Of a DNA stretch of 64,000 nt, positions 5,189 to 10,362 are shown one piece after another. How positions within the stretch are numbered: position 1 is the first letter of the stretch; each line of letters starts with the position of its first letter. The position numbers and the translations under genes were made by a program. Origin of the DNA: Xylanimonas oleitrophica (GTDB lineage: Bacteria; Actinomycetota; Actinomycetes; Actinomycetales; Cellulomonadaceae); assembly GCF_003244315.1 (NCBI RefSeq), contig NZ_QKWH01000004.1, positions 186,001-250,000 on the forward strand, written 5' to 3'. The notes below the pieces were generated by a model. It had not been told where the DNA came from. It saw nothing but the letters and a program-made list of their open reading frames with translations, and ran no database searches.

Positions 5189-6190
5189 ATGCCGCACGCC
5201 GCCCCGTTCGTGCCCCCCGAGCGAGCCGCGGACCACCTGCTGCTCGTCCCCGCCGACGACAGCCTGCCGACGCTGCCCGAGCTCGTCGGCGCGTGGTTCC
5301 CCGACCCCACGTGGCTCCGCGAGCCCGTGGTGCCGCCCGAACGGCCGTCGTCCGGTGCGCGCTTCCGCGGTCTGCGGCCCAGCAAGCCCGCCGAGCCCGT
5401 GCCCGGCCTGCTGCGCGTGGGGGAGGAGCACGGGCTCCACGGCCCCTTCCCGGTGGATGCCGAGCAGGCGGCCGACCTCGGGATGGCGGGCCCTGCCTCC
5501 GCCTGGGCGCTGACCAGGATCGAGGGCGAGGCGTTCCCGCGCAGCCGTCGCCCGGCGTCGTACGACGACCGTGACGGCATCTCGCGAGCGTTCGCGGCCG
5601 GGCTGCCCGAGGGCGAGGAGCTGCGGGCGGTCCAGTGGGCCGTCGCGGCCGCGCGCAAGGTGGGTGGGGTGGTGCTGGTCGACGGTCAGGTGCGGCTGGC
5701 GCCGGACCCGCGCGGGGCCGTGGACCTCACGCTGTACTCGGCACGTGCCATGGCGGCCGCCGACCTGCTGCACCAGGTCCGGGTGCTGGTGGCCACGGCC
5801 GAGATCGAGGCGCAGTCCACCGGGATCGACGGCGCGGCGCAGTACACCGTGGTGGGCCGCACGCCCTACGACGGCGCCGTGTCCGTGCGCGTCGAGCGGG
5901 TCGATCGTGTGCCGCGCTCCCTGGCGGGCCTCGACTGGCAGCTCTACGGGCCGTTCACCTACCACCTGGGCTGGGTGCCGCAGGACCCGTACGAGCTGCA
6001 GACAGAGCAGCCGTCAGGTCTGCACCTGATCGCGCGCGGTCGCATGCGCGTGCTCCTGGCGCGGCTCGCCTCGGGGTTGCACGAGCGGCTGGAGGGCGTG
6101 TTCGTCGACGACGGCGGCTTCGTGGTCGGTGCCGCCGAGCTTGCCGGCCGGCTCGACGACCAGGAGGACGGCGCGCGCGCCTGGGTGTGA
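5189..6190 (+). CDS. Protein of unknown function, paralog of 9238-10362
   Basis: Protein of 333 residues with no signal peptide or membrane segment, so probably cytoplasmic. I do not recognise a named family. It is clearly related to the protein encoded at 9238-10362: both share RAF-AGLP-(E/N)-EE-R-V-W-VA-AR-GG-V-VD, then DP-AVDL-SA, and a C-terminal block (TYHLGW or AYHVRW, then HLIARGR or HLVARKR). The shared acidic and aromatic positions suggest one globular domain of about 200 residues. A leaderless-type -10 precedes the start. The two genes bracket pirin, tRNA-Gly and dcd. The function cannot be assigned. Confidence 0.75.
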   Translation: MPHAAPFVPPERAADHLLLVPADDSLPTLPELVGAWFPDPTWLREPVVPPERPSSGARFRGLRPSKPAEPVPGLLRVGEEHGLHGPFPVDAEQAADLGMAGPASAWALTRIEGEAFPRSRRPASYDDRDGISRAFAAGLPEGEELRAVQWAVAAARKVGGVVLVDGQVRLAPDPRGAVDLTLYSARAMAAADLLHQVRVLVATAEIEAQSTGIDGAAQYTVVGRTPYDGAVSVRVERVDRVPRSLAGLDWQLYGPFTYHLGWVPQDPYELQTEQPSGLHLIARGRMRVLLARLASGLHERLEGVFVDDGGFVVGAAELAGRLDDQEDGARAWV

Positions 6191-6201
6191 GGCGGCCCGA
6201 C

Positions 6202-6238
6202 TTGTCCACAGGCTGTGTCCACAGGGTTGTGTGGACAG
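6202..6238. promoter_or_regulatory. DnaA-box-like cluster A
   Basis: Three 9-mers in 37 bp: TTGTCCACA at 6202-6210, a perfect match to the actinobacterial DnaA box; GTGTCCACA at 6215-6223, 8 of 9; and TGTGGACAG at 6230-6238, 8 of 9 on the minus strand. It lies immediately after the stop codon of the preceding gene. Weaker matches follow at 6270-6289. Confidence 0.5.
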
Positions 6239-6583
6239 CCACCCGCACCCTGCCCGACCTGCGGTGAGACCGTCCACGGGTGTGGACCGCCGCCCGGAGG
6301 CCGCGCCGCCAGGCTCGCGCGAGCGCGCCGGACGCCGCCGGGCGCGGGGGAGCGTGCGGGCGCCGAAGGGTGCGGGTGGCGGGCCGCCGTCGAGCCTGAC
6401 CAGGCGAGATGCTTGAAACACCGCGGAAATCCGGGGGTCACGCAGGCGGCGGGCCGGGTGAGGAACGCGCGGGCGGCGCGCTGGCGGTGCGGTCCGAGCC
6501 CGGCAGCGGGGGCGGTCGGGGCGGCCCGGGTCGGCGGTGCGGGTGGTTGAGCACTAGCGCAACCCGTCACCGGGACGGTCCCG

Positions 6584-6650
6584 TCATCCACAGATTTGTT
6601 CCACAGGGTTGTGGGTGATGTGGGGATTCCGCCACAGCGCCTGTGGATGA
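6584..6650. promoter_or_regulatory. DnaA-box-like cluster B
   Basis: TCATCCACA at 6584-6592 (8 of 9 to TTATCCACA), TGTTCCACA at 6597-6605 (7 of 9) and TGTGGATGA at 6642-6650 (8 of 9, minus strand). The latter two are accompanied by CAGGG or CCTGTGG extensions. About 350 bp separates this group from cluster A. No AT-rich unwinding element is visible between them. Confidence 0.45.
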
Positions 6651-7025
6651 ACCTGTGGTCGGTGAGAAGGCTCACCCGAGCCTCGTCCTGGGCCTTGCAC
6701 GACCCCCGGGACGGGGGCTACAAACGTGGCTACCGGTTCCGACCACGAGGACCCCACGGCCCCGCTGCAGAGGGCCACGGGCCTCGCGGCGGAGCAAGGT
6801 CGACCGGAGAACGACGAGCCATCCCGTACCGCGGTGCGGGCTGCGGGTGACGACGCAGGTGCTCGGGCGGGGCCGGAAGACCACCCGCGTCCGGCGGGCC
6901 GTGGAGAACGGGTCAGGGGTGCCTCGCGAGGAACGGCTCCTGACCTGACGGCTCGTCGGGGCCGTGACGTCGACGCGGCGCCCCTGGTCCCCGGGACCGT
7001 CGATCAGGGGTACGCGGTTGTCATC

Positions 7026-7055
7026 CGAGGCCCCCCGGCAGGCCGGGGGGCCTCG
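7026..7055. terminator. Terminator-like perfect hairpin
   Basis: Perfect 14-bp arms (CGAGGCCCCCCGGC and its complement) around a 2-nt AG spacer, without a U tract. It ends 61 bp before the pirin start and about 840 bp after the last upstream CDS, so it either insulates pirin or ends an unannotated plus-strand transcript. Confidence 0.6.
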
Positions 7056-7104
7056 GCCATGCCCGGAGCCGCTGCCCCACCGAGCCGTCCCCGCCGTCGC
7101 CCCC

Positions 7105-7110
7105 TACGCT
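7105..7110 (+). promoter_or_regulatory. -10 element of a probable leaderless promoter
   Basis: TACGCT ends 6 nt before the pirin ATG at 7117; no ribosome-binding site lies between. Confidence 0.5.
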
Positions 7111-7116
7111 CGCACC

Positions 7117-8172
7117 ATGAGCGACCTCGGGAGCCGGACGGCCGCAGGCGGCGTGCAGCTGCTGTCGGCGCGCGACGTGCCGCTCGGCGGCCCCCGCGCG
7201 ATGTCGGTGCGGCGCACCATCCCCCAGCGCGCGCGGTCGCTCGTCGGCGCCTGGTGCTTCTGCGACCACTACGGGCCCGACGACGTCACCCGCTCCGGCG
7301 GCATGCAGGTGCCCCCGCACCCGCACACGGGCCTGCAGACCGTCTCCTGGCTCTTCGCCGGAGAGATCGTGCACCGCGACAGCGTCGGCTCGCTGCAGAC
7401 GGTGCGCCCCGGCGAGCTCAACCTCATGACCGCCGGCGTCGGGATCTCCCACTCCGAGGAGTCTCCGGAGGGCGACCGCCCGCCCACGCTCCACGGGGTG
7501 CAGCTGTGGACGGCGCTGCCGGCGTCGGCGATGGACGTGGCGCCCCACTTCGAGCACCACGAGGACCTGCCCGTCGCCGAGCGCGACGGCGCCCGCGTCC
7601 AGGTGTTCCTGGGCGCCCTGACCGTGCACGGCCGGCGCCTGGTCTCGCCCGCGACCACGTACACGCCGCTCGTCGGCGCCCAGCTCGACCTCGCGCCCGG
7701 CAGCCGGGTCGAGCTCGAGGTGGACGCCGGTCACGAGCACGCGCTGCTGGTGGACTCCGGCGACGTCACCCTCCAGAGAGGCGCCGTGCCCCAGGCCGAG
7801 CTCGGCTACGTGGCCCCCGGCCCCGAGCGGCTCGTGGTCGAGGCCGGTGCCGACGCCCCCGCCCGTGCGGTGCTCATCGGTGGCGCGCCCTTCGAGGAGG
7901 ACATCGTCATGTGGTGGAACTTCGTGGGACGCACCCACGACGACGTCGCCCGTGCCCGCGCCGACTGGATGGCCCAGCTCGCCGACGCTCCCGACGACGC
8001 GGCCCAGACCGAGTACGCCGACGGCGCCGCCGAGCGCCGGTTCGGGAGGGTCGACGGCTACCCGTCCGGCCCGCTGCGCGCCCCCGCCCTGCCGGACGTG
8101 CGGCTCAAGCCGCGCACACGGCCCACCGCGCCCACCGAGCCGTGGATGGCGGAGCCGAACGCCTGCAGCTGA
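7117..8172 (+). CDS. Pirin-family bicupin protein
   Basis: Protein of 351 residues with the two-cupin pirin layout. The N-terminal cupin carries the conserved metal set: His68 and His70 in PPHPHTGLQTV, and His112 and Glu114 in GVGISHSEES. The C-terminal cupin (residues ~170-290) ends with the FEEDIVMWWNFVGR segment typical of the family. Bacterial pirins are Fe-containing and some have quercetinase activity or bind metabolic enzymes; which applies here is unknown. The start is chosen at the ATG just after a leaderless -10; the longer upstream frame crosses the terminator-like hairpin. A bidirectional terminator follows. Confidence 0.9.
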   Translation: MSDLGSRTAAGGVQLLSARDVPLGGPRAMSVRRTIPQRARSLVGAWCFCDHYGPDDVTRSGGMQVPPHPHTGLQTVSWLFAGEIVHRDSVGSLQTVRPGELNLMTAGVGISHSEESPEGDRPPTLHGVQLWTALPASAMDVAPHFEHHEDLPVAERDGARVQVFLGALTVHGRRLVSPATTYTPLVGAQLDLAPGSRVELEVDAGHEHALLVDSGDVTLQRGAVPQAELGYVAPGPERLVVEAGADAPARAVLIGGAPFEEDIVMWWNFVGRTHDDVARARADWMAQLADAPDDAAQTEYADGAAERRFGRVDGYPSGPLRAPALPDVRLKPRTRPTAPTEPWMAEPNACS

Positions 8173-8248: not shown

Positions 8249-8322
8249 TGGAGCGGGTGACGGGAATCGAACCCGCGCTGTCAGCTTGGGAAGCTGAAGT
8301 TCTACCATTGAACTACACCCGC
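8249..8322 (-). tRNA. tRNA-Gly (anticodon CCC)
   Basis: Minus-strand cloverleaf. The acceptor stem is GCGGGTG pairing with CACCCGC, with discriminator T and an encoded CCA at 8251-8249. The D arm contains GTTCAATGGTAGAAC. The anticodon arm is TCAGC, loop TTCCCAA, GCTGA, so bases 34-36 read CCC and decode GGG. The T arm is GCGGG-TTCGATT-CCCGT. Length is 74 nt with CCA. Confidence 0.95.
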
Positions 8323-9089: not shown

Positions 9090-9237
9090 GCCGTCGCCGT
9101 CGGACTCGCAGGGGGTGCGGATGAACGAGCACGAACGGGGCATAGGCGACAGGGGCGAGCACCGCTACGCTCGGTCGCGCCACGAGGGCGCCAGGGCGCG
9201 CCCTCGGGCGCTACCCAGCCGGAAGGAGCTCCGCCGC

Positions 9238-10362
9238 ATGGCCCAGAGCGCGACGTCGTCGCAGCCTGCGCTGCCCCGGTCGTCCACCCGTGGTCACCAG
9301 GCCCGCCACCTGCTCGCACTGCCCGCCGACGTCGTCGTCGACGAGGTCGAGGTGCTGGCGCTGTCACGGTTCCCGTCGACGCGCTGGGAGGTGGTGCCGC
9401 GCGAGCTGCCGGGCGCCGACGTGCCGGTGGGGCGCATGGCCGGTCCGGGGGAGCCGGGCGTGCTGCGGCTGAGCCGGCACTCGACGCTGACGGGGCCGTA
9501 CCAGCCCGCCGGTCAGGGGTTCGACGCCGGTCTGCCGGGCGGTACCGCGGTGGTGTTCGACGTCGTGTGCCCGCGCGAGCGGTGGGACGACGCGCCGCCG
9601 CAGGACGGCGGGGACCGTGACGGGCTGGCGCGCGCCTTCCCGGCGGGCCTGCCGAACCGTGAGGAGGAGCGTGTCGTCACCTGGCTGGTCGCGGTGGCGC
9701 GGCGCCTGGGCGGCTCGGTGCGGGTCGACGTCGGTGGCATGTGGGACGAGAGCGCGTCGCCGACCGCACCGGTCGGCACCGGGGTGGTGCTGACGCCCGA
9801 CCCGGGCGCGGCCGTGGACCTGTCGGTGTTCTCGGCCGTGTGGCTCGACCCGCAGGCGTGCCACCGGGTGGTGCAGGCCGTGCACCCGCGGGCCCGCCTG
9901 GCCACGGAGGGCGCCGACTACCAGGGGCCGCCGCAGGGCATCGCGGAGCGGCCGCTGTACCCCGGCGAGCAGATGGACCCGGACGTGCGCCGGGCGCTGC
10001 ACGCGGCCGCCGACGAGTTCGACATCGCGGCCCTGCGGGCGCCGCAGGTGCTCGACGGCTTCGGCGTCGTCGTCGACCTGGACCACGACGGCTGGGTGAC
10101 CGTCGAGGTGGCGGGCGAGGAGGTGCTGCCGCCGCTGCTGCGGGAGCTGCCGTGGGCCCAGGGCGGCTGCGTGGCCTACCACGTGCGCTGGGACCCGCCG
10201 GACATCGTCGAGGCGCAGCGGGAGCACCCGCACCACGCGCACCTGGTGGCGCGCAAGCGTGCCGCGGAGCTCGTGTCGCGCGTCGCTGCCGCGATCTGGG
10301 AGGCCGCGGGCGGGGAGATCGCCGACGAGGCAGACTTCCTCGTCGACCCCGAAGACCTGTAG
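9238..10362 (+). CDS. Protein of unknown function, paralog of 5189-6190
   Basis: Protein of 374 residues, probably cytoplasmic. The start is set by a good ribosome-binding site (GGAAGGAGCT, ending 7 nt before the ATG); an earlier in-frame GTG gives only a low-complexity basic extension. It shares the core of the protein at 5189-6190: RAFPAGLPNREEERVVTWLV, then ARRLGGSVRVD, DPGAAVDLSVFSA, AYHVRWDPPDIVEAQ and HLVARKR. It carries ~40 extra residues, partly an insert near residues 215-260. No named family is recognised. The pair may be an old duplication with pirin, tRNA-Gly and dcd between the copies. Confidence 0.8.
   Translation: MAQSATSSQPALPRSSTRGHQARHLLALPADVVVDEVEVLALSRFPSTRWEVVPRELPGADVPVGRMAGPGEPGVLRLSRHSTLTGPYQPAGQGFDAGLPGGTAVVFDVVCPRERWDDAPPQDGGDRDGLARAFPAGLPNREEERVVTWLVAVARRLGGSVRVDVGGMWDESASPTAPVGTGVVLTPDPGAAVDLSVFSAVWLDPQACHRVVQAVHPRARLATEGADYQGPPQGIAERPLYPGEQMDPDVRRALHAAADEFDIAALRAPQVLDGFGVVVDLDHDGWVTVEVAGEEVLPPLLRELPWAQGGCVAYHVRWDPPDIVEAQREHPHHAHLVARKRAAELVSRVAAAIWEAAGGEIADEADFLVDPEDL

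Follow-up and report, generated by a model that had tools for sequence, protein, structure and literature searches.

A conserved DnaA-box array beside a predicted structured RNA gene in Xylanimonas oleitrophica and its relatives: a candidate origin-proximal DnaA control locus

The locus described here lies in the window, i.e. the whole stretch of 64,000 nucleotides of Xylanimonas oleitrophica DNA that we analysed, and occupies the 926 bp, read as non-coding, between a plus-strand gene ending at 6190 (5189-6190; no Pfam match) and a plus-strand gene of the pirin family starting at 7117 (7117-8172; Pfam PF02678/PF05726, start codon assigned by eye). The upstream gene may encode an SseB-like protein. 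Its product and that of 9235-10362, both flanking the locus and both without Pfam match, look like paralogues by eye. An RNA search places a tRNA-Gly (CCC) gene on the minus strand at 8249-8322. The intergenic DNA carries two groups of DnaA boxes followed by a predicted structured RNA gene on the plus strand. Cluster 1 (6202-6238) comprises three boxes, an exact TTGTCCACA at 6202-6210 (+), GTGTCCACA at 6215-6223 (+) and CTGTCCACA at 6230-6238 (-). The main array (6584-6662) comprises five boxes, three of them weak: TCATCCACA at 6584-6592 (+) and again at 6642-6650 (-), the weak TGTTCCACA at 6597-6605 (+), and two weak minus-strand boxes at 6610-6618 and 6654-6662. An earlier note on this DNA had reported the five 9-mers starting at 6202, 6215, 6230, 6584 and 6642, and all of them are present as stated; the weak boxes at 6597 (+), 6610 (-) and 6654 (-), i.e. 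boxes 2, 2b and 4 with 2-3 changes each, were absent from it, and their positions recur in relatives. The two clusters of boxes in 450 bp of non-coding DNA that it described do exist, but it missed that the second belongs to an array of fixed geometry and that a conserved RNA gene follows behind this main array.

Five near-perfect DnaA boxes within 450 bp are not due to chance. The window contains 10 matches with at most one change from TTGTCCACA/TTATCCACA, five of which fall inside these 450 bp, and when 300 first-order Markov samples were drawn from the window, the fullest 450-bp stretch never held more than three boxes (in 5 samples) and usually held one; comparable random clusters, named by the earlier note as grounds for dropping its proposal, were not found in these samples. 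Counting the motif TTRTCCACA genome-wide (3.49 Mb, 28 contigs), as the note had suggested, gave 15 matches, all being TTGTCCACA, vs 3 for the reversed control. The strict pattern CCACA-N9-CACAG-N3-TGTG occurs at two places in the source genome, which are the two clusters, and its reversed control at none. Chance clustering of the 9-mers, or their being binding sites of an unrelated protein, would be in line with one-mismatch boxes being common in this high-GC genome, in which TTGTCCACA with one mismatch is found 220 times vs 167 times for the reversed control; since such single boxes barely exceed the background, it is the clustering that counts, and the Markov samples, the empty reversed-pattern search, the conservation of the spacing in other families and the recurrence of CTGTCCACA, GTGTCCACA and TTGTCCACA in the genome's own oriC-like cluster render this explanation very improbable.

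The putative promoter of the RNA (6695-6724, +; TTGCAC - 18 bp - TACAAA) begins approximately 32 bp downstream of the last DnaA box and is conserved by eye in relatives, where variants such as TTGCAG, TTGCGG or TTGTGC and TAGAAA or TACAAC occur; a stringent consensus promoter/terminator scan returned no site, so that the promoter is called on conservation. The RNA gene itself, of about 330 nt (6726-7060, +, ends approximate), is predicted from fold and alignment, and in the window the main array lies 64-142 bp upstream of it. It contains a conserved core (6790-6890, +) predicted to form a three-way junction supported by covariation, with a closing stem GGUC-GA-CCGG ... CCGG-AA-GACC, an inner stem and two hairpins. 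The 3' end is marked by a terminator-like GC-rich hairpin, an inverted repeat at 7025-7056 (+), which the stringent scan did not report because it has no T-run; the aligned RNAs of relatives likewise terminate in GC-rich inverted repeats.

The fold of the whole RNA is unusually stable (z = -4.5; none of 100 shuffles as good). Single-core folds have z-scores of -0.68 to -3.2, the 101-nt core of the window with -0.68 not being unusually stable, and the case for an RNA structure is therefore not built on stability alone. We aligned 16 sequences of the upstream/whole region and 15 sequences of the core using MAFFT, and RNAalifold analysis of the core alignment yielded 19 consensus pairs, eight of them with double changes, and the model R1. 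Among 81 distinct RNA sequences, 17 of the 19 pairs change on both sides and 95.7% of the cells pair, a figure favoured by this alignment having been fitted to the model structure, vs 33-44% for slid-structure controls. Four divergent members folded singly share the closing stem, internal loops and two hairpins, and in Cellulomonas APG4 the outer stem GGUC/GACC is inverted to GACC/GGUC. Judged from the alignments, the region is a structured RNA with compensatory changes. A protein-coding reading of 6726-7060 is not favoured, covariation and indels fitting an RNA. Searches of Rfam 15 gave no credible match to a known family: at gathering thresholds only tRNA was found in the window, the region 6191-7116 returned two chance-level matches (E 3.6 and 6.4), and the loci of six divergent relatives gave only tRNAs at E<=0.5. 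The genes next to the RNA vary by lineage, being pirin in the family of the window, and a GNAT acetyltransferase (L215), a phosphate transporter (L154) or an FtsX-type permease (L153) elsewhere; with other neighbours in other families and a terminal hairpin of its own, the RNA is unlikely to be a pirin leader or riboswitch. The earlier note had also considered DnaA control of the neighbouring gene. Since the RNA unit recurs beside pirin, GNAT acetyltransferase and phosphate transporter genes, which are unrelated, such control is more plausibly directed at the RNA than at pirin.

In several families of the class the array shows the same layout, a plus-strand box, a second plus-strand box at 13 bp, a weak minus-strand box at 26, and minus-strand boxes at 58 and 70, the spacing of 13/45/12 bp being preserved between families. 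The conservation in related genomes for which the earlier note had asked is thus present in the form of a fixed-geometry array. We quantified the geometry in 108 distinct pattern-bearing arrays aligned on box 1; selection by the pattern makes boxes 1, 2 and 2b conserved by construction, and box 3 entered a later selection. A minus-strand box (at most 2 changes) lies 57-69 bp from box 1 in 96 arrays, in 89 of them at 57 or 58, a weak minus-strand box (at most 3 changes) is found at offset 26 in 70, and box 4 (at most 3 changes) follows 12 bp beyond box 3 in 87. Box 4 was part of no selection, and yet its TGTGG positions show an identity of 0.87-0.99 among the 68 arrays that have box 3 at 58. 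Spacing this rigid over class-level distances is more suggestive of DnaA assembling in a defined way than of loose titration sites. Cluster 1 has counterparts as well: the array pattern, found 584 bp upstream of the RNA core in the window, also lies 530-595 bp upstream of the core in four further genomes (G302, G317, G330, G363), and an Isoptericola locus (L009) has a three-box cluster at the position matching cluster 1.

Conservation was followed at several depths. Among 80 dcd-centred loci the two-cluster layout is the same in Isoptericola QY 916, partial layouts are found, e.g. in Actinotalea, Cellulomonas APG4 and Promicromonospora, and most loci, Microbacterium and Arthrobacter included, are without the array layout at this place. 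Of 297 genomes of the order searched at the DNA level, 51 showed a match of any kind; the matches with E below 1e-7 all belong to the same family, and the others are short and weak. Model R1 detects the RNA in 109 of 150 family genomes, representing 20 of 25 genera, and in 10 of 394 genomes of the class; model R2, built from 84 sequences, detects it in 39 of the 394 at E<=0.01, absences in these searches being soft as Infernal's stricter filters were used for more than 40 genomes. Inspection of the upstream DNA covered those of the 42 class places from R2 that had a locus, 12 having none. The RNA matches in 12 of 26 named genomes comprise Isoptericola BMS4, Cellulomonas massiliensis, Cellulosimicrobium cellulans MP1, Cellulomonas Leaf395, C. 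humilata, C. iranensis, Cellulomonas Root485, Cellulomonas IC4_254, Oerskovia turbata, a Demequina MAG, Pedococcus bigeumensis and, as a weak match without boxes, Kitasatospora paracochleata; at least four of the 12 are family genomes already counted and no new evidence (G777=G074, G779=G406, G784=G412, G788=G336). No RNA match was obtained in the other 14, i.e. C. triticagri, C. cellasea ET82, Sanguibacter, two Kribbella, Ruania, Kitasatospora phosalacinea, Pseudokineococcus, two Streptomyces, Actinomyces johnsonii, an Actinomycetales MAG and two Microbacterium. Weak R2 matches without promoter or boxes at four loci (L160, L213, L220, L222) are probably false, and so is the match L193 in G209, whose array lies elsewhere (L099). 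Four genomes of genus g12 (G343, G354, G371, G391) have two RNA matches each, in G343 about 2 kb apart.

Array and RNA are closely associated. At least one DnaA box with at most one change is present in the 400 bp upstream of 80 of 83 distinct RNA loci (84 model matches minus L010, which is the same place as L166), compared to none of 83 downstream control stretches, with about 10 of the 83 loci biased towards boxes through having been fetched by a DNA query containing the array. One box was found at 7 loci, two at 25, three at 29, four at 14, five at 5 and none at 3. Sixteen of 20 class RNA loci outside the model carry at least two upstream boxes and four carry none, and at least two are found at 11 of the 12 RNA loci of the named genomes. 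Starting from the array instead, the strict pattern occurs at 112 places in 99 of the 150 family genomes, vs three genomes for the reversed control, and at 81 of the 112 the next 1 kb contains an R1 match on the same strand, at a median of 206 bp to the core and in 71 of these 81 at 156-247 bp. In the class the pattern is present in 26 of 394 genomes (reversed control, 11), 18 of which have the RNA about 200 bp downstream. Counted per family genome, 80 have both, 29 the RNA only, 19 the array only and 22 neither (Fisher p 0.003), a moderate co-occurrence partly explained by the strictness of the array pattern and by R1 missing diverged RNAs. Ten genomes of genus g99 have a further array-pattern place, which is separated from the RNA by about 60-85 kb in those with both on one contig. 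That array, promoter and RNA hold a near-constant order and spacing next to varying neighbouring genes is what one would expect if the boxes were purely the control region of the RNA, with DnaA acting as an ordinary transcription factor and the array having no titration or DnaA-state function.

Arrays are also found on their own. Neither promoter nor RNA core is recognisable at nine array places, i.e. in Sanguibacter (L022), in genus g9 (L100), at five loci of genus g106 (L278-L280, L283, L284) and at L277 and L264; the first seven are spacing-intact and thereby speak against a pure control region, as does genus g106, in which five genomes (G307, G321, G334, G346, G364) have the array only and two (G356, G373) have array and RNA. 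Other cases include two arrays with a degenerate core motif (L099 and L102, genus g5), L267, which has a promoter-like element and an unfiltered R2 score of 24.8 bits, L233, which was missed by the class R2 search and scores 21.4 bits at the expected place, and L225 (G013), where another, second array of boxes is accompanied by a promoter-like element but by no clear RNA match. At L264 (G397) a terminator-like hairpin resembling that of the RNA directly follows the array and no core separates the two, which looks like a loss of the RNA; this genome does have an RNA match, on a different contig. Boxless RNAs are rarer, L155 and L214 (both family f39, the latter being one of the four boxless class loci) retaining the promoter-like element and the RNA. 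As the array without RNA is commoner than the RNA without boxes, and persists where the RNA is unrecognisable, the array probably has a DnaA role of its own, apart from the RNA. An explanation of the boxes as nothing but an RNA control region is accordingly on the unlikely side.

The dnaA gene of the source genome is located on another contig (C24, at about 109.7 kb), with an oriC-like box cluster just downstream of it (C24:110038-110536). Nothing found in this fragmented genome speaks against the earlier note in placing the boxes far from dnaA. Three further DnaA-box-like sites lie near dnaA, upstream of a gyrB gene assigned by eye (C24:114841-114881). We located dnaA in 31 genomes, mostly picked for few contigs, and found the RNA approximately 105-751 kb from dnaA in 30 of them, corresponding to 2.4-15.6% (median 6.9%) of the length used, figures that are approximate with 14 of the lengths being rounded genome sizes; in 27 of the 30 the RNA is transcribed away from dnaA. 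The 31st genome, G209, was dropped, its doubtful boxless RNA match lying about 28% of the chromosome from dnaA and its array at 6.2%, and this count omits the additional RNA copy present in each of G343 and G371. Origin proximity could partly be inherited synteny, and shared synteny within the family limits the independence of these positions. A secondary or relic replication origin, brought to mind by box clusters of both orientations in non-coding DNA, is scarcely conceivable: the genome has its separate oriC-like cluster at dnaA, the locus is not beside dnaA/dnaN in the source genome or, given the distances above, in the 30 relatives, an RNA gene adjoins it, and no AT-rich unwinding stretch is visible by eye in 6190-7116. 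In this the earlier note, which had judged oriC unlikely, is borne out.

An origin-proximal position together with arrays lacking the RNA would also fit a pure DnaA titration or DnaA-state locus of the datA/D78 type, the RNA being an independent neighbour or a by-product whose transcription does no more than modulate occupancy, and datA of E. coli is described as being always close to oriC and modulated in its activity by read-through transcription (PMC4585315, PMC10950094). Strong selection on the RNA structure, the near-constant distance between array and RNA, and transcription directed away from the array and not through it argue against this explanation, which we regard as decidedly unlikely.

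Our best reading, to which we give an even chance, is that of an origin-proximal DnaA control locus, datA/D78-like, joined to a DnaA-regulated RNA gene. This corresponds to a model according to which DnaA, probably as ATP-DnaA, would assemble into a defined oligomer on the array; that DnaA binds the array is highly probable. Acting by itself, the array may bind DnaA or change its state soon after being duplicated behind the fork, the locus being near the origin in relatives and hence copied early, and might thereby damp re-initiation, an effect reported for datA and for the D78 cluster of Streptomyces; an action of the array on DnaA or on initiation is about equally likely to be true or false. 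In genomes that have the RNA, its transcription would be tuned by the complex of DnaA and array, 32-110 bp upstream of the -35 box, and a regulation of the RNA by DnaA is somewhat probable. As no box overlaps the promoter, activation or long-range modulation appears likelier than occlusion. RNA output would thus follow DnaA state and origin copy number, and the action of the RNA would most likely reside in the conserved internal loop (CCGGARAACG / CCGGAAG), plausibly as a protein ligand. More tentatively, and with a probability somewhat short of even, this could represent a replication checkpoint extending over several actinobacterial families, in which an origin-near DnaA oligomer array of fixed geometry both sets DnaA activity and drives a new family of structured RNA, whose output would then be a readout of the initiator state. 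Taken together, the interpretation of the earlier note is partly supported.

To our knowledge, the restraint of re-initiation is much less understood in actinobacteria than in E. coli, and the RNA would, on this reading, be the first known to us to have its gene arranged around such an array away from oriC, conserved and bound by DnaA. The linked RNA may connect replication initiation to gene expression, and the fixed-spacing array near dnaA provides a concrete target for deletion in Cellulomonas, Isoptericola, Cellulosimicrobium and Promicromonospora. Our literature searches, with the key Streptomyces cluster paper outside the comparison, found no paper describing the RNA or the array.

Ms1 (scr3559), also described for Cellulomonas, Actinotalea and Oerskovia (PMC9130861) and reported to be about 300 nt long (PMC11077062), resembles the RNA in being a structured RNA of Actinobacteria. 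The Ms1 gene is described as adjoining a HAD hydrolase gene with oxidoreductase-type neighbours (PMC9130861), and neighbours of this type, ORFs assigned by eye, are found elsewhere in the source genome (contig C7, L203) near a CpaE-type match that stays under its cut-off (125.6 vs 154.45 bits). R2 gave no match in this neighbourhood at E<=1, and we rule out an Ms1/6S-like identity of the RNA by location and by this result rather than by direct sequence comparison. CoRP of Corynebacterium is likewise a recently found actinobacterial RNA beside tRNA genes; it is reported to be 516 nt long, to lie between tRNA-Gln/Glu genes, to bind RNA polymerase and to have, as far as the source describes, close homologues only in Corynebacterium (PMC11077062). 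Nearest in idea to the array-linked RNA, though alphaproteobacterial and likened to it by description only, are two cell-cycle small RNAs, i.e. CcnA of Caulobacter, encoded at the origin and presumed to be activated by CtrA (PMC8959179), and EcpR1 of Sinorhizobium, described as repressing dnaA mRNA (PMC4414408).

Turning to the array, no RNA of the array-linked family is known to us at the DnaA-box clusters of Bacillus subtilis. The datA locus of E. coli requires an IHF site and promotes DnaA-ATP hydrolysis, and DARS reactivates DnaA by exchange of DnaA-bound ADP for ATP. In E. coli, datA is described as a non-coding locus near oriC with four to five DnaA boxes of conserved spacing and position, linked to transcription of a tRNA-Gly operon (PMC4585315, PMC10950094). 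Four to five boxes with conserved spacing are also found here, though three of the five window boxes are weak, and 30 of the 31 relatives, G209 having been dropped, have the locus at most 15.6% of the chromosome from dnaA. Unlike at datA, the adjacent transcript is a predicted structured RNA directed away from the array. A tRNA-Gly gene lies near the array as beside datA, perhaps by coincidence; in Cellulomonas APG4 (L014, 7211-7281) the array directly adjoins it, as in Actinotalea solisilvae (L015) by sequence reading. Such adjacency occurs only in some lineages and was rejected as a datA-like hallmark. DARS1 and DARS2, whose core is described as three DnaA boxes with conserved spacing (PMC4585315), resemble the locus in this spacing, being likened by description and not base by base. 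The B. subtilis clusters, reported to restrain initiation (Okumura 2012, cited in PMC10950094), are, like the array, origin-proximal and outside oriC, albeit in another phylum. A conserved region close to the origin that is dense in DnaA motifs is said to favour titration (PMC12371093), and TTGTCCACA is described as a high-affinity DnaA box (PMC4285127).

Closest by lineage are the D78 and H69 DnaA-box clusters of Streptomyces coelicolor (Smulczyk-Krawczyszyn 2006, cited in PMC10950094), which, like the array, are actinobacterial clusters outside oriC, with D78 being set beside it by description only. D78 reportedly has high affinity for DnaA and its deletion is said to raise the frequency of initiation. 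We know of no RNA partner or fixed array for D78/H69, and the RNA model gave no match in the two named Streptomyces genomes. The datA/DARS-like locus proposed by the earlier note stands in so far as a datA/D78-like element is the best-fitting known kind, the activity being suggested by analogy.
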